Assembly (NCBI GenBank): GCA_025060015.1
Contig: JANXDB010000037.1
Location: 1-49,883, forward strand
Direction: 5' to 3'
DNA length: 49,883 nt
From: Caldimicrobium sp.
GTDB taxonomy: Bacteria > Desulfobacterota > Thermodesulfobacteria > Thermodesulfobacteriales > Thermodesulfobacteriaceae
This document shows positions 1 to 10,974 of the stretch, piece after piece. Position 1 is the stretch's first letter. Every line of letters begins with the position of its first letter. Position numbers and translations under genes: made by a program. The notes under the pieces are model-generated. The model searched no databases. It saw nothing but the letters and a program-made list of their open reading frames with translations, and was not told the DNA's origin.

Positions 1-997
1 AATCTGCAAGAGCCGTTGAAGTAAAATTTGAAGTTGTAGAAGTATCACCAGACGCTGTTCCAGCGACACTGCCAAGGTTTACCGTAAAAGTTTTTTGACC
101 ATCACCAATGTAAAACCTTAAATCTATTGTTGCGGTAAAACTTGCTGAATCACTGGTCTCAGAACCAGTGTAACTAAAGGTTCCTGTAATTACATTGCTG
201 TACTGCTTTGCTAGACTTATGTTTTTAGCCTTAGCCTCTATTTGAAGTTTCTTCATCTGCTCATTTTCATTTATGTTTTTGGCTAAGGTTGCCGCATCTA
301 CTAGTGTGTTAGTTGATCCACCCTGATAAACAGTAATGTCTGCAATTCTGACATACTCATTTACGGAAAGGATGTGATTAGTGGCTCCATTAAGTGAACC
401 ATTTGTTCCTATAAGAGCTGATAAGGTTCCACCTGTGGTTGAACTTACGCCTGTTGCGGTGCCACCGTTACCTGAGGCAAGATAGGCACCAAGGCTTTGT
501 GCTCTGACATCTGATACGGATAAACTAACAGTTTGATCCATTCTGGGACCATAATGAATGTACTTTCCTGCAAAGGACCCATCAAGAAGCTTAATACCGT
601 TATACTCGGTGTCAGTTCCAATCTTCTGAATAGCATCGACAAAGTTCATAATCTCTCTTTGTAGGGCCTGTCTAGCATTAGGGTCATTAACGTCGTTGGC
701 TGCATTTTGAGCCCTCACATAGATCTCCTGCAGTTTGTCAAAGATTTGTCCAGCACTGGCCTCGGCAATCTGTAAAGCTGAAAAACCAGTTTGAATGTTT
801 CTGTTACCCTGCTCATAGGCCTTGGCCACTGTGGAAAGCATGTCGGCAATGAACATACCAGCAGAGTCATCAGCGGCGTTGAGAATTCTCATACCTGTTG
901 ACATCCTCAACAAACTCTTGTTCATCGCTCGCTCATTACGGATGAGCGAGGTGTGGGTTTGGGCTGCTGCTTCGTTAAAATTGATTTTTACTGCCAT
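1..997 (-). CDS. fliC: Flagellin, 3' end cut off by the window edge
   Basis: Structural protein of the flagellar filament, exported through the flagellar type III apparatus. The open frame runs from ATG at 997 to the window edge, about 332 codons with no stop. The N-terminal D0/D1 helices are recognisable (MAVKINFNEAAAQT at the start, then RILNAADDSAGMFIAD near residues 33-48 and NGIKLLDGSF near 133). The later part is rich in Ser/Thr/Gly, as in the variable surface domain. The conserved C-terminal D0 helix lies outside the window. A strong ribosome binding site (AAGGAGGTG) precedes the ATG, and a sigma-28 promoter lies just upstream. The seen part contains N-x-S/T triplets (NGS, NIS, NFT), but I saw none with the acidic residue two places before the Asn that bacterial PglB usually prefers. 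Family identity is sure; the symbol is generic. Confidence 0.95.
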   Translation of the reverse strand, partial: MAVKINFNEAAAQTHTSLIRNERAMNKSLLRMSTGMRILNAADDSAGMFIADMLSTVAKAYEQGNRNIQTGFSALQIAEASAGQIFDKLQEIYVRAQNAANDVNDPNARQALQREIMNFVDAIQKIGTDTEYNGIKLLDGSFAGKYIHYGPRMDQTVSLSVSDVRAQSLGAYLASGNGGTATGVSSTTGGTLSALIGTNGSLNGATNHILSVNEYVRIADITVYQGGSTNTLVDAATLAKNINENEQMKKLQIEAKAKNISLAKQYSNVITGTFSYTGSETSDSASFTATIDLRFYIGDGQKTFTVNLGSVAGTASGDTSTTSNFTSTALAD

Positions 998-1074: not shown

Positions 1075-2313
1075 TTACAAAATAGATTTCCTGTGTGCAC
1101 AGAAAATAAAAATGGGGTTTTCCGCCTTGAGGTAGAGGTTGTCTCTAAGGGATCTTGCACGATTTATCTGAAGTTGAGTTACCTCAGTAAGAAAGTCCTC
1201 TTTGAGGAGCTTAAGGGTTCTCTGGAGGTTATTGAAACATACAAAGGTGGCTACAATTCTCTCCAAAGAGGGCAAAGCCCTTAGGAATCCCAAAATTTCA
1301 TCCAGTTTTCCACCACTTCCGCCGAGAAATACTCTCTGAGGATATGGAAGCCCGTTAAGAGAAGATGGTGCCTCGCCTTGAACTATCTCCAAGTTGCTTA
1401 CATAGAATTTTCTTTTGTTTCTATTTATCGTCTCACAGGCGGAAGGGTCCTTCTCAATGGCATAGGTTCTTACCAGAGGAAAAAGCCTTGCAACTTCTAA
1501 GCTAATTGACCCTGAACCAGCACCTATGTCCCAAAAAATGCCTCCCTGCGGTATCTTTAGCCTATGAACTACCACTGCTCTGATTTCATCCTTGGTTATC
1601 ATCCCATCTCGATGCTCAATATCAACTTCCGTTAATCCAAACCTTGCTTCCTGCCACCACTTAGGGTTTTCCACTAAAAGGCAGTTTGGCTCAAAAATGG
1701 TCTCTTTGATAAAATCATTAGGTTTTCCTTCAAGGATTCTCTCCTGATCTGTCCCAAGTCTTTCACCGATGTATATCTTCAAGTGACCCTGATCTACCTC
1801 TAACAGTGCCTCTGCGATTTTATTAGGAGGATTGTTGCTGTCAGTAAAGATAAATAGGTAGGGACTCTCTTTTACCGCCTTTAAAAGAGCATCTACATCG
1901 AAGCTTCTTCCGTGAAAGGAAAGAACCCTAACATCCTGGGTGGGAACCTTCAGACGAGCACAGAGGACCTGCATTGTGGAGAGGTCTGGATGGACCTCTA
2001 TATACTCCTTTGGAAAATGCTTAAGCAAGGTCTCTCCAAGGCCAAAAAATAGAGGATCTCCGGTTACTAAAATGGCTACCTCTTTTCTCTCAGACTGAAT
2101 AGAAGAAATAAGACTAGAGAGCTTTTTAACCTCAGTTAATTTAGATAGAATTTCAAAAGGTAACTTCTCAATTTTATCAAGGGCTGAGGAAAAGAGGTAA
2201 ACCTTAGAACATCTCTTTAAAACTGATACTTCTCTTTCAGAAAAGGGTCTGTAGCTAAAACCAATAAGATGAATCTTTGGTGCATTTAGAAGACCTACCT
2301 CTTGTTTGAGCAT
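1075..2313 (-). CDS. cbiET: CbiET: precorrin C5,C15-methyltransferase / C12-decarboxylase
   Basis: Corrin-ring methylation at C5 and C15 with decarboxylation of the C12 side chain. It is a fusion of CbiE (about residues 12-205; TGDPLFFGLG is the tetrapyrrole methylase signature) and CbiT (about 230-412; FWDIGAGSGSISLE is the SAM-binding loop), the same arrangement as CobL. I chose ATG at 2313 (412 aa) because AGGA sits 7 bases before it; a GTG at 2319 adds two residues. The first dozen residues (MLKQEVGLLNAPK) do not look like CbiE and continue in frame from a decayed upstream gene. The real methylase core starts at KIHLIGFS. Last gene of the cobalamin cluster. High confidence in function, moderate in start. 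Confidence 0.93.
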   Translation of the reverse strand: MLKQEVGLLNAPKIHLIGFSYRPFSEREVSVLKRCSKVYLFSSALDKIEKLPFEILSKLTEVKKLSSLISSIQSERKEVAILVTGDPLFFGLGETLLKHFPKEYIEVHPDLSTMQVLCARLKVPTQDVRVLSFHGRSFDVDALLKAVKESPYLFIFTDSNNPPNKIAEALLEVDQGHLKIYIGERLGTDQERILEGKPNDFIKETIFEPNCLLVENPKWWQEARFGLTEVDIEHRDGMITKDEIRAVVVHRLKIPQGGIFWDIGAGSGSISLEVARLFPLVRTYAIEKDPSACETINRNKRKFYVSNLEIVQGEAPSSLNGLPYPQRVFLGGSGGKLDEILGFLRALPSLERIVATFVCFNNLQRTLKLLKEDFLTEVTQLQINRARSLRDNLYLKAENPIFIFCAHRKSIL

Positions 2314-2464
2314 TGCCACATCCTGTGAGAGGGGAAGCTTGCTAAGCTCAAGTGCCCACCTGGATGGATCCTTAACGCCCTAATAATATCTGCAAAGGTT
2401 CTTACAACGAAGGCCTCCCACTCCTGCTCAGCCCTTTGAGAGGTTCAATAATTTCAGGCTTCAT
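2314..2464 (-). pseudogene. Decayed small protein gene fused in frame to the cbiET start
   Basis: A good ribosome binding site (GGAGGAG, 10 bases before ATG at 2464) starts a frame MKPEIIEPLKGL that soon stops. Shifting frame gives EQEWEAFVVRTFADIIRAL, and another shift gives DPSRWALELSKLPLSQDVA, which runs straight into cbiET. Together they look like one small helical protein gene with two frameshifts. The string EQEWE and its DNA (CCTCCCACTCCTGCTC on the plus strand, near 2415-2430) recur in the 42-bp repeats at 40301 and 49747. I do not recognise the family. Confidence 0.55.
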
Positions 2465-2563: not shown

Positions 2564-3328
2564 TTAAGTTTCAGTGCTATTTCCAGCTCCTCTTTTCATA
2601 TAGTATATTTCCATTATGACTCCCATCTCTTTTCTAATCTCTCTTCTTAGACTTTTCAATCTTTCACAGATCTCGCTTAATCTTCCTGAAAACAATACCT
2701 CCCTCTCTGTCCCCACAAAGGCACCCCAGTGTATTATTACATTTTCGTCATCCTTGAATTTTTGAAAGGTCTCATAGTTATCAAGAAAGACTAACACTGG
2801 ATGAGAAATTCTCTCCAAGTAACGAAGGCTCCTTGGTGTATGAAAGGCTAAAGGAGTTGAAACCTCCGTTAGAGATATCTTCTGTTTGGCACTTAAGACC
2901 TGAAAGGAGGATAAACCAGGAATCACCTCCCATTTAACGGGAAGATCTTTTTCCACTTCCCTCATGATATCAATATGGCCATCGTAGAGCGATGGATCAC
3001 CCCAGATGAGAAGACCCGCCTCACTCTCCTCACTGTCAAGCAAAGCTCTTTTAAGAATTCTAGCCTTCTCCCTTCGCCACTCTTTGACCTTTTCTTTATA
3101 ATTTGGCCCTTTCCTTCTCTCTGGAAAACTAAGCCCAACGATTGTAAAGTTATCATTGCCCTTTACAGTTTTAACCAAGTTTAATCTTATTTCAGTTAGA
3201 ATTTCCTTCTTTCCGGACTTATCCGGCACAAAGAAGAGATTGAGCTTTTGGATTAAATCCCTGGCTTCGAGAGTTAAGTACTTGGGATCACCAGGGCCGA
3301 TACCGATAAGATACAATTTAGTTATCAT
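2564..3328 (-). CDS. cobF: CobF-type precorrin-6A synthase (C1 methyltransferase/deacetylase)
   Basis: In the aerobic pathway CobF methylates precorrin-5 at C1 and releases acetate. The 254-aa protein has the SAM-methylase start IGIGPGDPKYLTLEA and matches CobF-specific segments along its length: ERRKGPNYKEKVKEW (about 70-84), LLIWGDPSLYDGHI (about 107-120), WEVIPGLSSFQVL (about 133), HWGAFVGTEREVLFSGR (about 200-216) and MGVIMEIYYMKRG at the end. These fit CobF, not CbiL/CobI or CbiH. Its ATG overlaps the cbiX-cbiC stop by four bases. It is odd to find CobF beside CbiX and other early-cobalt genes in a probable anaerobe; it may replace CbiD. The actual substrate, with or without cobalt, cannot be read from the sequence. 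Confidence 0.85.
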   Translation of the reverse strand: MITKLYLIGIGPGDPKYLTLEARDLIQKLNLFFVPDKSGKKEILTEIRLNLVKTVKGNDNFTIVGLSFPERRKGPNYKEKVKEWRREKARILKRALLDSEESEAGLLIWGDPSLYDGHIDIMREVEKDLPVKWEVIPGLSSFQVLSAKQKISLTEVSTPLAFHTPRSLRYLERISHPVLVFLDNYETFQKFKDDENVIIHWGAFVGTEREVLFSGRLSEICERLKSLRREIRKEMGVIMEIYYMKRGAGNSTET

Positions 3329-4284
3329 TCTATGGCATGAGCTAACTTAAGCAGAGCATTGACCACAGCCACACAAGCTGGAGTTCCCCCTTTTCGGCTA
3401 AGATTGGTAATGAAAGGAAAATCCTGTTGAGAAAGCATAAGCTTTGACTCATAGGCCCTTACAAAGCCAACTGGCAAACCAACAACCACAATGTCTTTGC
3501 GATTATCTCTGTTGATGAGCTCAATAGTTCGTATTAAAGCCGTTGGGGCATTTCCAATGGCTACAAGCCCAATGTTTTCTTCTATCTCAAAGGCGAGCTC
3601 AATAGCCCTTTCAGCCCTCGTGCCTTCCCCTTCCTCTACCTCGCTCATAAAACAAAGCACCCTATTTTTACCATACCTCTTAGTTATCCCAGCCCGAACC
3701 ATCTCCACATCAACAAGGATATCTTTACCTGCCCTTAAAAGATCTACAGCCCTTGAGATAGCCTCGCCATGAAAAAGCATGGTATCCTTGAATTCAAAGT
3801 CAGCGGTAGCATGGATAACTCTCTTCAAAACTACTTGCTCCTCAGGCGAAAAAGAACCCAAGTCCACCTCGTCCTCAATAATCTCAAAGCTCTTCTCCTC
3901 GATCTCCTTGCCTTTAAGAGAGCCTATCTCAAGTATTCTCTCTCTAACGATATCAGCCAAGGACTCATGAACACCTAAAGGTTTAGTGTAGAGAATCTCC
4001 ACTTCAGGATTATTCACTTTGTATCTATCTAAGATTTTCGGAATATCATGAGTTACATGATGACCGTTACTGAGAAAAAAGGGGTGGACAATGATTTTGT
4101 TTGCTCCTTGTGAAATGAGCTTTTCCAGAACCTCTTCCAAAGATGGGCTTTCAAATTGAAGATAAGCGATGGTGAGATCTTCAACCGGTTTGCTTAGTTT
4201 TCTTGAAAGAATTTTCAAAAATGGTTGCCATCTGTTGGCTTCCCTTCTGGGACTACCATGCAAGATAAGAACTATTTTCTCCAT
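3325..4284 (-). CDS. cbiXC: CbiX-CbiC fusion: cobaltochelatase plus (cobalt-)precorrin-8 methylmutase
   Basis: Two cobalamin enzymes in one 319-aa chain. Residues about 1-120 are a short-form CbiX sirohydrochlorin cobaltochelatase, with the metal-binding histidines in HGSPRR (near residue 9) and HPFFLSNGHHVTHDIP (near 71-86). Residues about 130-319 are CbiC/CobH precorrin-8X methylmutase: HATADFEF holds the catalytic His, and AIGNAPTAL and GLPVGFVRAYESK are family motifs. The two reactions are not consecutive steps. AAAGGAG precedes ATG 4284 by about 6 bases. An 87-bp gap with a palindrome separates it from cbiA, so it probably starts a second transcription unit with cobF. Confidence 0.92.
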   Translation of the reverse strand: MEKIVLILHGSPRREANRWQPFLKILSRKLSKPVEDLTIAYLQFESPSLEEVLEKLISQGANKIIVHPFFLSNGHHVTHDIPKILDRYKVNNPEVEILYTKPLGVHESLADIVRERILEIGSLKGKEIEEKSFEIIEDEVDLGSFSPEEQVVLKRVIHATADFEFKDTMLFHGEAISRAVDLLRAGKDILVDVEMVRAGITKRYGKNRVLCFMSEVEEGEGTRAERAIELAFEIEENIGLVAIGNAPTALIRTIELINRDNRKDIVVVGLPVGFVRAYESKLMLSQQDFPFITNLSRKGGTPACVAVVNALLKLAHAIE

Positions 4285-4371: not shown

Positions 4372-5652
4372 TTACTTAAAAGCTAGGAGATGAAGATAGG
4401 AGGCTAAAGCATTTTTGTATTTGAAACCCTCTGTAAAAGTGGCTCCCTCAGGAGTACTTACTTTATAGATCAACTTTATCCTGCTGCAAGGGGATTCAAC
4501 TATTCGGGTGTAGTGAAATTCATGGGCAAAAAAAGGGGCCCTGCTTTTGAAAAATGGGATTTCTTCCATTGGTGTAACGTAACGATATCCGAGTGTGAGT
4601 TTGCTATGGCAAATTGTGAAAGGAAAGCCACCTGTCATGGAATACTCTCTGTCCTCCCACTTCAAAAGCTTGCTTAGATAGATTAGTCCCCCACACTCTG
4701 CATAAAGAGGTAGCCCATCTTCAATCCACTGTCTAAGGTTCTCTGCCATTTTTCTATTACCTGATAATGCCTCAGCATAAAGCTCAGGATACCCCCCTCC
4801 AATGTAAATAGCCTCGGTGCCGGAGGGGATGGTTTCATCTCTTAGAGGACTAAAGGTATGAATAACCGCTCTGGTTTTCATTTCATCTAAGATATGCTGA
4901 TAGTAGAAGTTAAAAGCCTCATCATAGGCTATTGATATGTTTTTTTGAGGAAGCTCTGGGATAAAGGAGTATGCATTTAAATTCTTGGGTGTGTCCATGA
5001 TAAAGCTATTTAATATCTCCGGATTTAAAGACCTGTCTAAGGCATTTGCCACTCTCTCTATGACTTCTGTTTTGAAGGATAGGTGCTCAGGAAGAACCAA
5101 GCCCAGATGTCTTGAAGGGAGGGCCAAAGTTTGGTCCCTGTAAAGATAGCCTAAAATGGGGTGTTTTCTCAGGACCTTTAATAGCCTTAAGAGGTGCCTC
5201 TCAGAAGAGACTCTATTAAGGAAAAGAGCATAAGTAAGGCTTGCTCTTTTGATTCTTTCAGTGAAACCCTTTACCAAAGGCGCCACACTTTCAGCTACTC
5301 CGTAGGTATCAATTATCAGTACAAGTGGTATCTTTAGAACCTTAGCCACATCGAAGGTAGAGGATCTTCCATCGAAGAGACCCATCACCCCTTCAACAAT
5401 CGCCACATCAGACAAGGTAGCCTTTGAGTAAAAGAGAGACCTCACTCGCTCCTTTCCCATGGAAAACAGATCAAGATTATAGGAAGGCTTGCCAGAGGCA
5501 AACATGTGCCACTTGGGATCAATATAGTCTGGCCCTACTTTAAAGGGCTGAACTCGATAACCCCTGGAACTAAAGTACTTCAGTAGGGAGAGGGTGATCA
5601 GGGTTTTGCCCTCCCCACTCTTTGGAGCACAGATCAAAAGCCCTTTAGCCAT
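4372..5652 (-). CDS. cbiA: Cobyrinic acid a,c-diamide synthase CbiA
   Basis: ATP- and glutamine-dependent amidation of the a and c carboxylates of (cobalt-)cobyrinate. The 426-aa protein has an N-terminal dethiobiotin-synthase-like P-loop domain (APKSGEGKTLIT, about residues 9-20; GPDYIDPKWH near 40; EGVMGLFDG near 86) and a C-terminal class I glutamine amidotransferase-like domain (GGGYPELYAEAL near 285, and the nucleophile Cys in YAECGGLIYLSK near 323). The start overlaps the cobD end by 19 bases. Normal length. Confidence 0.95.
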   Translation of the reverse strand: MAKGLLICAPKSGEGKTLITLSLLKYFSSRGYRVQPFKVGPDYIDPKWHMFASGKPSYNLDLFSMGKERVRSLFYSKATLSDVAIVEGVMGLFDGRSSTFDVAKVLKIPLVLIIDTYGVAESVAPLVKGFTERIKRASLTYALFLNRVSSERHLLRLLKVLRKHPILGYLYRDQTLALPSRHLGLVLPEHLSFKTEVIERVANALDRSLNPEILNSFIMDTPKNLNAYSFIPELPQKNISIAYDEAFNFYYQHILDEMKTRAVIHTFSPLRDETIPSGTEAIYIGGGYPELYAEALSGNRKMAENLRQWIEDGLPLYAECGGLIYLSKLLKWEDREYSMTGGFPFTICHSKLTLGYRYVTPMEEIPFFKSRAPFFAHEFHYTRIVESPCSRIKLIYKVSTPEGATFTEGFKYKNALASYLHLLAFK

Positions 5653-6707
5653 TTCTCCAAGGCCTCAAAAAAAATCTTATTACTCTCTTCATCCTTTATG
5701 GACACACGCAAGTAATCCGAGGATAGACCGTAGAAATTTTCACAGGTCCTAATAAGAACCTTCCTCTCTCTCAGTAACCACTCTACAAAAGGCTTAGCCG
5801 TAGGAAGATAAAATAGGTAAAAGTTTGTTACACTGGGAAAAAAATTAATCTTAAGTCTCAAAAAATGTTCCTCAAACCTCTTCTTCTCTTTTAAGAAAAA
5901 TTCTAAGCTTTTCTTTTTAAAGTCTTCATTAATCAAAACATATTTTGATAATATCTGAGAGATAGTGCTTACATTCCAAGGAGAGGTCAATCTCTTTAAG
6001 AGATCAATGTATTTATGATGGGAGACCATGTATCCTGATCTTGCACCAGCAAGGCCATAAAACTTAGTTAGAGATCTAAAGACCAAGAGATTATCCAGTT
6101 GAGTAGCTTCGTAGACAAGGGAATCCTCTTCACAAAAATCTATAAAGGCTTCATCTACAAAAAATAGAGTGTCTCCCTCTCTTGATATGATCTCTCTCAG
6201 TCTACTTTTTAAAAGAAGCCACCCTGTGGGATTATTTGGATTACAGATGATAACTACCTTTTTACAACCTGTCTCTTTTTTTAAGAAATTTTCTATAAAT
6301 TCAAACCAATCATTAGTATTCAACGAAAAAAACAAAGTTTTATGGTGTAAATCTTTTAATATCCTTCTATAGGCGATAAAAGTGGGCTCAAGAAGGAGCA
6401 CCTTTGATCCCCTCGGAATGAGATGATAGAGTGCCAAAGTTATCAGCTCAATAGAACCATTGCCAAATAAAATCTTCTCCTTTGGTATTCTGAGTTTTTC
6501 TGCCAGTATCTCTTTTAATTCCTCTGAGTAAGGTTCTGGATAAAACTCAAGATAACTGAGAAGATCACCAAGTTTATCCCTGATGAAGGCTGAAAAGAGG
6601 GGATTTACCGAGGAGCTGAGATCTCTGATAGCTGCAGGGGAAACCCCTAAAATCCTTGCCACACGATAAACGTTACCACCGTGATCGAATTCACTAAAAT
6701 AGCCCAT
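5634..6707 (-). CDS. cobD: Threonine-phosphate decarboxylase CobD (PLP enzyme)
   Basis: Makes (R)-1-amino-2-propanol O-2-phosphate, the linker attached by CbiB to adenosylcobyric acid. It is a 357-aa class I/II aminotransferase-fold protein. The N-terminal FDHGGNVYRVAR is typical of CobD rather than HisC, and RSLTKFYGLAGARSGYM (about residues 211-227) carries the PLP lysine. CNPNNPTG (near 153) is the usual cofactor-loop motif. It sits between cbiB (14-base overlap) and cbiA, which supports CobD over histidinol-phosphate aminotransferase. Confidence 0.92.
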   Translation of the reverse strand: MGYFSEFDHGGNVYRVARILGVSPAAIRDLSSSVNPLFSAFIRDKLGDLLSYLEFYPEPYSEELKEILAEKLRIPKEKILFGNGSIELITLALYHLIPRGSKVLLLEPTFIAYRRILKDLHHKTLFFSLNTNDWFEFIENFLKKETGCKKVVIICNPNNPTGWLLLKSRLREIISREGDTLFFVDEAFIDFCEEDSLVYEATQLDNLLVFRSLTKFYGLAGARSGYMVSHHKYIDLLKRLTSPWNVSTISQILSKYVLINEDFKKKSLEFFLKEKKRFEEHFLRLKINFFPSVTNFYLFYLPTAKPFVEWLLRERKVLIRTCENFYGLSSDYLRVSIKDEESNKIFFEALEKWLKGF

Positions 6708-7665
6708 ATTCGATAAGAATTAGAAAGAGGATAAATACATAAGTAGATGAGTAGAGAATTTTTCTTGCTATCTTGATTGCTGGCTCTAAGTGGAGTATTT
6801 GGTCCCTACCGATGGTTGGTTTATTAACCAACTTACCCTCGTAGTAAGCAGGTCCAAGCAGTCTGACACCTAAGGCACCAGCAAGGGCAGCCTCAGGATA
6901 ACCTGCATTGGGTGATGGATGTAAGGAGGCATATCTTAACACCCATAAAAGGGATCTCCTTGCAACTTCCAGTCCCAGACAGAGAAAGGAAGACTGCACT
7001 ATCAACAAAGCTGTTATTCTTGCGGGAATATAGTTCAACAGATCATCCATCTTGGCTGAAAACCACCCAAAATGAAGATATCTCTCGTTTTTGTATCCCA
7101 CCATGGAGTCTAGTGTGCTCACTGTTTTGAAAAGGACAAGCCCAGGTAATCCTAGGACAAACAGCCAAAAAAGAGGAGAAATCACAGCATCGTTGAGATT
7201 CTCGGCATAGCTTTCTAACACAGCCCTCCGTATTTCTTTAGGTGATAGATTAGTGGTATCTCTCCCAACCAGGGATTTAAGAGAGTCTCTTGCTCTATTT
7301 ATGTCCCCTATTTTTAGGTAATCATCTACCACTTTTCCTGCATCTACCAGTCCCCTCAAGGCAATAAACTGGGAAGCTAAAAAGACAAGAATAATCTCAC
7401 CCCAAAAATAGTTCTCCTGTTGCTTAACAAGATAGGTAAGCACACTGTAAGGAATAACGGAGACGGCAACCACAGCAAAGAAGAAGAGAACTCCCTGAAG
7501 TTTGTCCGATATAGGTTTTATAGTTCTAAACTTAGGCTCAAGAGTTGAAATTAACTTTCCTATGGCGGATATGGGATGTGGCACAAAGGGTGGATCTCCC
7601 AAAATCAGATCAATCAGGACTGCAAGGACTAGAAGATGAACTCCGAAGTTGAATATCTCAAACAT
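6694..7665 (-). CDS. cbiB: Adenosylcobinamide-phosphate synthase CbiB
   Basis: Integral membrane enzyme that joins the aminopropanol phosphate linker to adenosylcobyric acid. The 323-aa protein has several hydrophobic segments and the conserved family strings LIDLILGDPPFVPHPISAIGKLI (given here as its position, about residues 18-40), YAENLNDAVISPLF (about 151-164), DSMVGYKNERY and PNAGYPEAALAGALGVRL near the C terminus. It starts directly after the cbiP stop and overlaps cobD by 14 bases. Confidence 0.96.
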   Translation of the reverse strand: MFEIFNFGVHLLVLAVLIDLILGDPPFVPHPISAIGKLISTLEPKFRTIKPISDKLQGVLFFFAVVAVSVIPYSVLTYLVKQQENYFWGEIILVFLASQFIALRGLVDAGKVVDDYLKIGDINRARDSLKSLVGRDTTNLSPKEIRRAVLESYAENLNDAVISPLFWLFVLGLPGLVLFKTVSTLDSMVGYKNERYLHFGWFSAKMDDLLNYIPARITALLIVQSSFLCLGLEVARRSLLWVLRYASLHPSPNAGYPEAALAGALGVRLLGPAYYEGKLVNKPTIGRDQILHLEPAIKIARKILYSSTYVFILFLILIEYGLF

Positions 7666-9159
7666 CTAAAGACCGAGGATTTCGTGAACCTTCTCAAGTC
7701 TCAAGTGTCTCTCAACGAGAGCTGCTAGTCTATTGATGGAACAATCTACTGCATCTTTATAGCGAATTTTTACCTCAAGGGGTTTTAGTCCCTTCTTTTG
7801 GCGATGTCTGTTTATCAGTTCTCTTCGCAAGGCATCGTTGGTAAATACACCGTGAAGATAGGTCCCCCAGACCCTTCCTTGACATCTACCATCTCTCAAA
7901 ATCTCTCCTGTTGCCAATCTCTGGATCTCAAATAGATTCATATCACCAAAGCTCACACCCTTGTGAATTTCAAAACCCCAGAGGTCCTCTCTAGTCTCAA
8001 AGAGAGACAGGGCCTTTGCTTTGACCTGAGTGGTTACCTTTTCTGGAAAAAAGGTGGTGGTTATATCAAGTAACCCAAGACCTTCTAGTTCCCGCTCTTC
8101 TCCTTCAATCTGATAAGGATTAAGAAGTCTTTCTCCCAACATCTGGAAACCACCACAAATTCCTATAATCTCAGCACCTCTCTCCATGGCTTTTTTAAGA
8201 AGATTTTTAAAGTCCATATCCTGAAGTCGCTTTAAATCTGAAAGGGTGTTTTTACTTCCTGGAAGAATGATAATATCCGCATCCAAGAGATCACCTTCAT
8301 TTAGAGAATACCGAAGTTCTACATCTTCTTCAAGATAGAAGGGGTCAAAATCGGAAAAATTGGATATGTGCTGAAGTGTTACTATTACGATTTTTACTGC
8401 AGCCTCCCTTCTTTGAAGGTGTCCTTTATTAAAAAAAGAAAAACCATCCTCATCAGATAGAGAGATATCAAAATAGGGTAACACCCCAAGACAGGGAAGT
8501 CCTGAGAGTGCACTAAATCTCTCTAAACCTGGCTTTAAAATGTCCAAGTCTCCGCGAAATTTATTTATCACGTAACCTTTGACCAAAGAAGCATAGTCTC
8601 TTTGAAATATCTTCAATAACTCTAAAGTTCCGTAGAGGGAAGCAAAGGCACCACCCTTGTCTATGTCACCCACCATAATAACTGGTGCCCTAAAAAAGAG
8701 TGGTGGTTTAATGTTGACAAGATCCACATCAAGTAAATTTATCTCCGCAGGGCTTCCAGCCCCTTCCATAATTATAAGTTCGAACCTCTCTTGAAGGTTT
8801 CTCAATGTTTCACTTACCTCTCTCCAAAGAGAGTCCTTTTCCTTGTAATAGTCTTTTGCAGTAAGTCTCTTGTAAAGACGCCCCTTGACAATAACCTGAG
8901 ACTTACCATTACCCTCTGGTTTAAGTAGTATTGGATTGAAAGTGTATTCAGGTTCAAGCCCACAGGCCATAGCCTGAATAGCCTGAGCAAGTCCAATCTC
9001 TGATCCGTCCTGACAGATGTAACTTTGAAGACTCATATTCTGAGCTTTAAAAGGTGCCACCTTTAGTCCTCTTCTATGCAGAATCCTACATAAAGCAGTA
9101 ACCAGGAGAGATTTGCCAGCAGAGGAGTGTGTTCCAGTTATCATCAAAGCTTTGGCCAT
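7666..9159 (-). CDS. cbiP: Cobyric acid synthase CbiP/CobQ
   Basis: Amidates carboxylates b, d, e and g of adenosylcobyrinic acid a,c-diamide with ATP and glutamine. The 497-aa length is normal. The N-terminal MITGTHSSAGKSLLVTALCR is the P-loop segment, FKAQNMSLQSY (near 38) and EGAGSPAEINL (near 135) are CobQ-specific, and GICGGFQMLG (about 337-346) is the amidotransferase nucleophile elbow, with YLHGVF near 438 as the catalytic His region. It overlaps the cobS end by 16 bases and abuts cbiB. Confidence 0.96.
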   Translation of the reverse strand: MAKALMITGTHSSAGKSLLVTALCRILHRRGLKVAPFKAQNMSLQSYICQDGSEIGLAQAIQAMACGLEPEYTFNPILLKPEGNGKSQVIVKGRLYKRLTAKDYYKEKDSLWREVSETLRNLQERFELIIMEGAGSPAEINLLDVDLVNIKPPLFFRAPVIMVGDIDKGGAFASLYGTLELLKIFQRDYASLVKGYVINKFRGDLDILKPGLERFSALSGLPCLGVLPYFDISLSDEDGFSFFNKGHLQRREAAVKIVIVTLQHISNFSDFDPFYLEEDVELRYSLNEGDLLDADIIILPGSKNTLSDLKRLQDMDFKNLLKKAMERGAEIIGICGGFQMLGERLLNPYQIEGEERELEGLGLLDITTTFFPEKVTTQVKAKALSLFETREDLWGFEIHKGVSFGDMNLFEIQRLATGEILRDGRCQGRVWGTYLHGVFTNDALRRELINRHRQKKGLKPLEVKIRYKDAVDCSINRLAALVERHLRLEKVHEILGL

Positions 9160-9923
9160 ATTATCACCAGATAAAGGAGGGTTATGATCTCTGAGAGAAT
9201 TACAAGGGCGCCTAAATTATCTCCGGTTAGCCCTACAAAGGCCTTGTCAAAAAGCCTTTTAGAATAAAACAGTATCGAAAAATTCAACAACAGTAGGAGA
9301 AGCGTGTCCCTCAAACTCAGGGAAGTAAGTTTCATAATCAAGCTTAAGAGGATAAAACTTATAACTATGGCCAAGGTAAAAACCCCTTTGTTCGTATGCG
9401 TAATCATGATGTAGCCAAGCCCTTCAGCTCTTGCTGGTTTTCCAAGAAAAAGCCAGAGGTTGAGAAACATCCTTGAAATAAAATACGGTAAGATCAAAAA
9501 AGGACCTTGATTCATCTGCAAGATTTCCTTGAAAAGTTGAAACTTTCCCAGTATCACCAACGTAACGGCGGTCATTCCAGCAACGCCTACCGTTGAGTCT
9601 TTCATTATGCTCAACCTCTTCTCCACATCTCTCGTCTTATCCCCACATCCCTTATATGACAGAGCATCAAAGGTGTCAGAAAGCCCATCTAAATGAAAGA
9701 TACCTCTCAGGAAGAAGAGAAGAGCAATCAATATCAAGGCAAGGAGGGGGCTTGGGACAAAGTTAGTAAGTAGTTTAGCCACCAAAAAGAGGATAAAACC
9801 TTCAAGAAAGCCCACAAGAGGAAAGAAAGGTATTCCTACTTGAAAGTCCTTCTCAGACTTTGGATAGATACCTAGGGGTAGCCTCCAGAGAAAGCTAATA
9901 GCATAGAAAGGCCCACAAAGCAT
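9144..9923 (-). CDS. cobS: Adenosylcobinamide-GDP ribazoletransferase CobS
   Basis: Membrane enzyme that joins adenosylcobinamide-GDP and alpha-ribazole(-phosphate) to give cobalamin (phosphate). The start was set at ATG 9923 (259 aa), which gives the family-like beginning MLCGPFYAISFLWRLPLG and lies one base after the cobT stop; an upstream ATG at 9959 inside cobT has no ribosome binding site. Motifs: GIFHLDGLSDTFDAL (about 74-88) with metal-binding Asp residues, and KDSTVGVAGMTAV after it. Several hydrophobic helices follow. No CobU/CobP or CobY gene is seen in the window. Confidence 0.93.
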   Translation of the reverse strand: MLCGPFYAISFLWRLPLGIYPKSEKDFQVGIPFFPLVGFLEGFILFLVAKLLTNFVPSPLLALILIALLFFLRGIFHLDGLSDTFDALSYKGCGDKTRDVEKRLSIMKDSTVGVAGMTAVTLVILGKFQLFKEILQMNQGPFLILPYFISRMFLNLWLFLGKPARAEGLGYIMITHTNKGVFTLAIVISFILLSLIMKLTSLSLRDTLLLLLLNFSILFYSKRLFDKAFVGLTGDNLGALVILSEIITLLYLVIIWPKL

Positions 9924-9924
9924 C

Positions 9925-10974
9925 CTAAACAATGGCTGTGGAAACCCCTGCTGACTCAAAGGTTGCCATTTCTCTGTAAATGCGAAGAGCGGCTTCTATA
10001 ACGAGCATAGCTAGGGCTCCACCTGTTCCCTCCCCTAAGCGAAGGTTTAGATCAAGTAGAGGCTCAAGTCCCATATAATTTAGCTGAAACTGATGTCCAC
10101 TCTCCTGGGAACGGTGCGAGGCTATGAGGTAATCTCTCACCAGCGGATTTATTTTATAGGCAATTAAAGCTCCAGCAGTGGTTATAAAGCCATCTGTCAC
10201 AACTGGGATACCACTTTCGGCGCAGGCAAGGAAAACTCCTGCACAGGCTCCGATTTCTGTTCCTCCCACCTTGGATAGCACATCAATGGGATCCTCTGGA
10301 TTTGGATGGTGAAGTCTAATGGCTCTTTTGATAACCTCTATTTTCCTATTAAGGGTCTTTTCATCAATCCCTGTTCCTCTACCTGTAACCTCTTCCACAG
10401 GTTTTCCGGTAATAACTGCCGTTATGGCAGAAGATGGGGTGGTGTTGCCTATGCCCATGTCCCCTACCCCGATGAGGTTGTAACCCTGGGATATGGCCTC
10501 TTTGGCCAGTTCATATCCCACTTTTATGGTTTTTAAAGCCTCCTCTCTGGTCAAGGCAGGTTCTTTGGTAAAGTTCCTTGTTCCATAACAGACCTTTTTG
10601 GAATATAAGCCATCAATCTTGCTAAAGTTGTAATCCACACCCACATCCACAACTCTAACCTCTGCACCTGCATATCTTGCAAGAACATTTATTCCCGCAC
10701 CCCCTCTTAGAAAGTTAAAGACCATCTGGGCCGTAACCTCCTTAGGATAGGCAGAAATGCCCTCTTCCACAACTCCATGATCACCGGCAAAGACAAAAAA
10801 AAGTTTTCCTCTAATGGTGGGATTGAAATCCTTGTATATGGCCACAAGTTGAGCTGCTAACTCCTCTAATCTTCCTAAACTGCCTCTTGGCTTGGTAAGG
10901 TTATTTAATCTCTCCCAAGCCCTATCCAGATAATCCCTTTCAATAGGGTTGATTTTAATCTCTGATAAATCCAT
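9925..10974 (-). CDS. cobT: Nicotinate-nucleotide-dimethylbenzimidazole phosphoribosyltransferase CobT
   Basis: Activates the lower-ligand base to alpha-ribazole phosphate. 349 aa, normal length. Family motifs: LTKPRGSLGRLEELA (about 27-41), FAGDHGVVEEGISAYP (about 63-78), GVGDMGIGNTTPSSA (about 169-183), KVGGTEIGACAGVF near 240 and GEGTGGALA (about 315-323). It is the first gene of the cobT-cobS-cbiP-cbiB-cobD-cbiA operon. AAGGAGG lies 13 bases before the ATG, and a sigma-70-like promoter plus a palindrome lie upstream. Which base it uses cannot be predicted from the sequence. Confidence 0.96.
   Translation of the reverse strand: MDLSEIKINPIERDYLDRAWERLNNLTKPRGSLGRLEELAAQLVAIYKDFNPTIRGKLFFVFAGDHGVVEEGISAYPKEVTAQMVFNFLRGGAGINVLARYAGAEVRVVDVGVDYNFSKIDGLYSKKVCYGTRNFTKEPALTREEALKTIKVGYELAKEAISQGYNLIGVGDMGIGNTTPSSAITAVITGKPVEEVTGRGTGIDEKTLNRKIEVIKRAIRLHHPNPEDPIDVLSKVGGTEIGACAGVFLACAESGIPVVTDGFITTAGALIAYKINPLVRDYLIASHRSQESGHQFQLNYMGLEPLLDLNLRLGEGTGGALAMLVIEAALRIYREMATFESAGVSTAIV

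Follow-up and report, generated by a model that had tools for sequence, protein, structure and literature searches.

A CobF-family methyltransferase probably takes the place of CbiD in an early-cobalt corrin pathway of Caldimicrobium and other anaerobes

The window analyzed here is a stretch of 49,883 nucleotides from Caldimicrobium sp. (GenBank assembly GCA_025060015.1, contig JANXDB010000037.1, positions 1 to 49,883), and between positions 1075 and 10974 it carries nine cobalamin genes in one run, all on the minus strand. In the direction of transcription, the order is cobT, cobS, cbiP, cbiB, cobD-like, cbiA, cbiX-cbiC, cobF, and cbiE-cbiT, with the following assignments:

9925..10974, minus strand: CobT, nicotinate-nucleotide dimethylbenzimidazole phosphoribosyltransferase (TIGR03160, 466.9 bits)
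9144..9959, minus strand: CobS, adenosylcobinamide-GDP ribazoletransferase (PF02654, 135 bits)
7666..9159, minus strand: CbiP/CobQ, cobyric acid synthase (TIGR00313, 515.4 bits)
6694..7665, minus strand: CbiB, adenosylcobinamide-phosphate synthase (TIGR00380, 250.6 bits)
5634..6707, minus strand: CobD-like L-threonine-O-3-phosphate decarboxylase or HisC-like aminotransferase (TIGR01140, 251.5 bits, under the cut-off of 290.55)
4372..5652, minus strand: CbiA, cobyrinate a,c-diamide synthase (NF002204, 400.3 bits)
3325..4284, minus strand: CbiX-CbiC fusion, sirohydrochlorin cobaltochelatase and precorrin-8 methylmutase (PF01903, 89.1 bits; PF02570, 199.6 bits)
2564..3328, minus strand: CobF-family methyltransferase of the GDPSLYD-GH subtype, proposed C1 methyltransferase replacing CbiD (TIGR02434, 3nd1 fold, tree, subtype residues)
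1075..2319, minus strand: CbiE-CbiT fusion directly downstream of cobF, assigned to C5 and C15 methylation and C12 decarboxylation (TIGR02467 CbiE, 142.7 bits; TIGR02469 CbiT, 109.5 bits)

The cobF gene overlaps cbiX-cbiC by 4 bases and is separated from the cbiE-cbiT reading frame by about 245 bases, and in the 319-residue CbiX-CbiC fusion the Pfam domains lie at residues 9-115 (CbiX) and 127-313 (CbiC). No cobalamin riboswitch was found in the window or in locus L046, while two were found in L114. The corrin cluster is adjoined by a flagellin-like reading frame, named by reading its sequence (2-997, minus strand), that is cut by the window start.

The 254-residue protein encoded at 2564-3328 is a member of the CobF family, and the match is far beyond chance. 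It scores 216.6 bits against the NCBIfam CobF model TIGR02434 (cut-off 195.8), and residues 4-246 align to model positions 2-250 of 250, which, with the overlapping CbiX-domain gene, bears out the first-pass annotation of a full-length CobF match at this site. Closest among solved structures are 2npn from C. diphtheriae and 3nd1, the CobF of R. capsulatus, and an AlphaFold model (pLDDT 88.6) has 3nd1 as its top PDB match with a TM-score of 0.85 and 2npn as its third. A misnamed CbiL/CobI was considered and rejected, as this second-best model gives only 76 bits against its cut-off of 163, and a separate CbiL is encoded elsewhere in the genome. The tree keeps the protein inside CobF, which answers the earlier question of whether the phylogeny might place it outside: 45 CobF rows are split from four CbiL/CbiF outgroup rows with a support of 100/99, the window protein belongs to a group of ten rows (92/100), and it is about 60% identical to the CobF of Caldimicrobium and other Thermodesulfobacteriaceae. 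Plasmid-borne aerobic-type CobFs, the CobF of genome G090, and those of Chromatiaceae form one clade (99/98), and the root that the outgroup provisionally gives lies among sequences from anaerobes.

Residues that are invariant across the family are kept in the window protein, e.g., G110, P112, D116, R166, D183, and W201. The two positions after the GDPxLYD motif differ between groups: G117 is found in 27 of 27 and H118 in 26 of 27 of the CobF genomes defined below, the Chromatiaceae proteins have Q-T (11/11), and the aerobic-type proteins have S-T/S in all six cases, a sample that consists of six plasmid records only, two of them away from other cob genes. Lone plasmid cobF genes were seen beside metF and metE in Streptomyces clavuligerus (L051) and beside a methionine synthase gene and DUF1852 in Robbsia (L049).

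The first-pass annotation had asked whether the genome holds CbiD, CbiG, CbiF, and CbiH, and also CbiJ/CobK, CobG, and CobN. In the window's own genome (G000; 1.60 Mb in 67 contigs, 99% complete), a second contig, C57, carries cobU, a 423-residue reading frame, a cbiG-cbiH fusion, cbiF, and cbiL, of which CbiG-CbiH and CbiL were named by family scores, and CobU and CbiF from their sequences and from BLAST comparisons with relatives. The corrin enzymes found in the genome thus are CbiX, CbiL, CbiH, CbiF, CbiG, CbiE/T, CbiC, and CbiA. CbiD gave no match, also when searched with PF01888, and neither did CobG or CbiJ/CobK, while CobN is present, split in two. The genome-wide search therefore rejects a cbiD elsewhere in the genome, and of the pairing that the first-pass annotation had set against its own reading, a cbiD gene together with a complete CobNST set, the first half is missing and the second is partly present. 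All seven searched genomes of the genus lack CbiD, as do the single-contig genome G001 and the 10-contig, 100%-complete G017. CobG did not exceed the cut-off in any of 44 genomes; CobZ is another enzyme for the CobG step, according to a section of PMC7242693.

Seven proteins of the genome match the TP-methylase family: CbiL, CbiF, CbiH, CbiE, CobF, and two further proteins whose sequences read as a CobA-HemD fusion (506 residues) and as RsmI (276 residues). As the six others already have roles, CobF is the sole methylase left for C1. The 423-residue protein beside cbiG-cbiH (L046:8863-10134, minus strand) is without an NCBIfam match, reads as amidotransferase-like at its N-terminus, and recurs in L057, L062, L077, L079, L080, and L108; it may be a candidate to fill the CbiJ gap.

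The distribution of the two methyltransferases was analyzed at several scales. Among 41 genomes, namely the own genome and 40 relatives, 19 have CbiD, eight have CobF over the cut-off, none has both, and 14 have neither, and the exclusion has a Fisher p of 0.004, which is uncorrected for relatedness and counts the 14 genomes with neither regardless of corrin synthesis. In a sample of 395 genomes of the phylum, CbiD occurs in 195 and CobF in six, five of which are without CbiD, and exclusion at this scale is not significant (Fisher p 0.22). Genome G090 has both, CbiD in a full operon and a lone CobF (L112) outside any B12 operon, which carries the motif YDGT and lies outside the window's lineage in the tree; that the window CobF is such a lone paralogue was rejected.

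A scan of GTDB species genomes by two short peptide patterns gave 49 loci with 36 full CobF-family genes. The remaining 13 were dropped, L094 and L098 as truncated CobF-like genes at contig ends, and 11 others (L090, L092, L093, L095-L097, L099-L103) for low identity or partial query coverage. Eleven Chromatiaceae loci (L078, L081-L089, L091) were counted apart, and the other 25 make up, together with G000 and G001, a set of 27 CobF genomes that is not a census and consists mostly of metagenome-assembled genomes. It covers Thermodesulfobacteriota, including T. hydrogeniphilum DSM 14290, SeepSRB2, Eth-SRB1, and Desulfaltia, as well as Nitrospirota and Nitrospinota; duplicates were counted once (G041/G002, G042/G006, G043/G005, G044/G003, G046/G023, G048/G017, G061/G146).

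In this set, 25 genomes have no CbiD, G052 has an intact one, and G054 has a fragment; CbiD is present in each of the three comparators that lack CobF. All 27 genomes retain CbiG, in many cases as a fusion with CbiH like that of G000, and CobG is over the cut-off in none. Cobalt chelatases are represented by CbiX (at least 73 bits) in 16 and CbiK (at least 125 bits) in nine, and two genomes have neither. CbiJ was found in none of the 27; it is also absent from two CbiD genomes, G079 and G090, and parts of PMC545781 describe it as missing from most of the delta-proteobacteria studied, CbiD users among them. In G052, CbiK is duplicated and CbiE/T sets lie on two different contigs, and because of these duplications it may be a mixed assembly. 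The genomes of L094 and L098, which have CobN and gave no match to CbiD, CbiG, CbiX, or CbiK, are misfits to the pattern and may be incomplete. The 11 Chromatiaceae have CobF and CbiJ and no CbiD, with a strong CbiG_N match in only two.

The gene order places cobF where other operons have cbiD. The order cbiC, cobF, cbiE/T is found in 16 of the 27 CobF loci, including L070 with a CobF-CbiT fusion, and cbiE/T directly follows cobF in 24 (exceptions: L069, L071, and L072). The corresponding order cbiC, cbiD, cbiE/T occurs in seven of the 11 CbiD genomes that were looked at (G008, G009, G010, G012, G014, G025, G027, G028, G033, G052, G090; G012 was not scored as a success, as one of three CbiD reference reading frames, taken from L004, lay on the wrong strand). 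Four of these, G008, G009, G010, and G014, belong to the window's own family and have CbiX-CbiC, CbiD, and CbiE-CbiT with the same fusions as the window. This shared order indicates that cobF stands in the former place of cbiD.

One locus, L068 of Deltaproteobacteria bacterium B60_G16, contains remnants of the earlier arrangement. Its operon starts with cbiK, cbiA, cbiC, and cbiL; just upstream of cobF lies a cbiD stub, an 81-residue reading frame that corresponds to positions 1-52 of 346 in TIGR00312, followed in another frame by the 3' end of cobI/cbiL (positions 134-230 of 230 in TIGR01467), and then by an intact cobF, cbiE-cbiT, cbiF, cbiG, and cbiH. The genome-wide CbiD search in G054 gave nothing beyond the cbiD fragment. 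This looks like a replacement of cbiD by cobF caught midway, on a single contig in which a misassembly is possible.

Identities at these loci also set cobF apart from its neighbors. Between L068 and L075, CobF is 93% identical, as compared to 47-61% for CbiC, CbiL, CbiE/T, CbiF, CbiG, and CbiH, 45% for the permease, and 76% for CbiK; between L068 and L069 the values are 89% for CobF and 42-58% for the other genes, and between L068 and L063 they are 82% and 39-54%. For L063 and L065, CobF (75%) is within the range of the other genes (61-84%), and a transfer is therefore not seen between that pair. In most genomes the block of high DNA identity hardly extends beyond cobF, with no more than about 50 flanking bases in L069, L072, L063, L066, and L067, and the GC content of cobF is 0.37-0.39 versus 0.47-0.52 in the neighboring genes of L063, L066, L067, L068, and L075 (0.50-0.52 in the first four). 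High identity amid divergent operons and the AT-rich composition together show that the desulfobacterial cobF entered the slot by single-gene transfer, whereas in Thermodesulfobacteriaceae the GC content of cobF is close to that of its neighbors, which makes the gene older there. From these sequence comparisons, the replacement of CbiD by CobF looks real and looks repeated in heat-loving and other oxygen-shunning bacteria. The proposal of the first-pass annotation that this CobF homologue replaces CbiD has thus gained support from the cbiD slot in sister genomes, the L068 stub, and the single-gene transfers.

We consider it probable that corrin synthesis in these organisms follows the anaerobic, early-cobalt route, with CbiD replaced by a CobF subtype that methylates C1 of cobalt-precorrin-5B. 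CbiX, here fused to CbiC, would insert cobalt into sirohydrochlorin; CbiL, CbiH, and CbiF would add the C20, C17, and C11 methyl groups; and CbiG would open the lactone, with C20 leaving as acetaldehyde. Next, the CobF subtype would carry out the CbiD step without the deacetylation of aerobic CobF, and a reductase, CbiE/T, CbiC, and CbiA would follow. Sections of PMC7242693 describe the two known routes: CbiG opens the lactone of cobalt-precorrin-5A with release of acetaldehyde and CbiD methylates C1, while the CobF of aerobes methylates C1, with loss of the extruded C20. As CbiG is present in every genome of the set, methylation would be all that CobF has to do, and we infer that its substrate contains cobalt and that deacetylation is not needed.

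It has to be asked whether CobF could instead do both jobs, deacylating and C1-methylating cobalt-precorrin-5A directly, with CbiG as a helper or relic. Aerobic CobF does methylate and deacetylate, according to portions of PMC8123684 and PMC7242693, and the window protein keeps the family-wide invariant residues, but the retention of CbiG in all 27 genomes, often as a fusion to CbiH, and a motif beside GDPxLYD that is unlike the aerobic one make this unlikely. The CobN genes raise another issue, as they would suit a metal-free, late-cobalt route without oxygen, in which CobF acts on precorrin-5, a CobN-ChlI-ChlD-like complex inserts the cobalt, and CbiX serves siroheme synthesis or nothing. 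Contig C49 of the own genome (L104:4185-12783) indeed encodes a split CobN of 802 and 504 residues with ChlI-like, VWA ChlD-like, ABC ATPase, and FecCD genes. A gene run of similar layout occurs in T. hydrogeniphilum, which also has a full-length CobN beside its B12 operon; there, a radical-SAM gene followed by the full-length CobN lies just upstream of the operon (L105:1139-5868). However, a CobN-family gene is present in 13 of the 27 CobF genomes and in none of the other 14, so that CobF does not depend on CobN. Also against such a route are the lack of a CobG over the cut-off, the presence of CbiG throughout, the fusion of CbiX to CbiC within the own operon, and the position of the C49 genes away from the cob genes and with the FecCD importer; they look like a set of class I chelatase genes next to an importer for a metal or a tetrapyrrole. 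We thus regard a late-cobalt route as quite improbable; with its split CobN, the own genome may still have a metal-free branch.

That CobF performs another methylation, leaving C1 unmethylated so that a 1-desmethyl corrinoid is made, has a precedent in a 1-desmethylcobyrinic product that was reportedly obtained by Roessner in 2005 in engineered E. coli. This is very unlikely, as the enzymes for C20, C17, C11, C5, and C15 are all present and cobF sits in the cbiD slot. Finally, an own assembly of 67 contigs could in principle have lost cbiD in gaps, but its absence from single-contig G001, from 10-contig, 100%-complete G017, and from the seven genomes of the genus leaves this with hardly any probability. 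C1 methylation of cobalt-precorrin-5B by CobF remains the preferred reading.

By score, fold, tree, and invariant residues, the window protein resembles aerobic CobF, the deacetylating precorrin-6A synthase (3nd1, TIGR02434), from which it differs by lying in an early-cobalt cbi operon that is accompanied by CbiG but not by CobG, and by G117-H118 instead of S-T/S. With CbiD, the cobalt-precorrin-5B C1-methyltransferase, it would share the reaction and the slot between cbiC and cbiE/T, although it comes from an unrelated protein family. An exchange of CobF and CbiD in the opposite direction was only suggested in PMC3621897, a report on pCMU01 that cites Streptomyces work, a passage of which proposes CbiD as a stand-in for CobF in aerobic pathways. 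The PubSEED B12 rule "(CobF or CbiD)" in Table 2 of PMC4403557 formally permits CobF in a route with CbiK/X and CbiG, but none of the human-gut genomes in that study had CobF, and passages of it describe no such case; a haloarchaeal pathway gap was named cbiD/cobF in a section of PMC3403918. In the available portions of the open-access literature, no description was found of an anaerobic route in which CobF occupies the place of CbiD, and a search there for the mechanism of CobF deacetylation led nowhere. The Caldimicrobium medium contains a vitamin mixture according to a passage of PMC6543001, and no account of vitamin-free growth of Caldimicrobium was found in the open-access text that was available.

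Excerpts of PMC545781, PMC6593275, and PMC4303638 use CobF as a marker of the aerobic and CbiD as a marker of the anaerobic B12 route. If CobF works in an early-cobalt operon, as we infer, marker-based surveys would misread such organisms, either calling them aerobic or scoring them as lacking an anaerobic route. It is also possible, and we propose it only tentatively, that the GH-type CobF is specialized for C1 methylation of cobalt-precorrin-5B and is a single-gene module that has repeatedly displaced cbiD in place, and that the aerobic CobF descends from it by gaining deacetylation, positions 117-118 acting as the switch. The repeated single-gene swap would be a natural experiment, which predicts that, at an intermediate containing cobalt, one methyltransferase can take over from another of an unrelated family, and the window CobF could provide B12 engineering with a heat-stable enzyme for C1 methylation.
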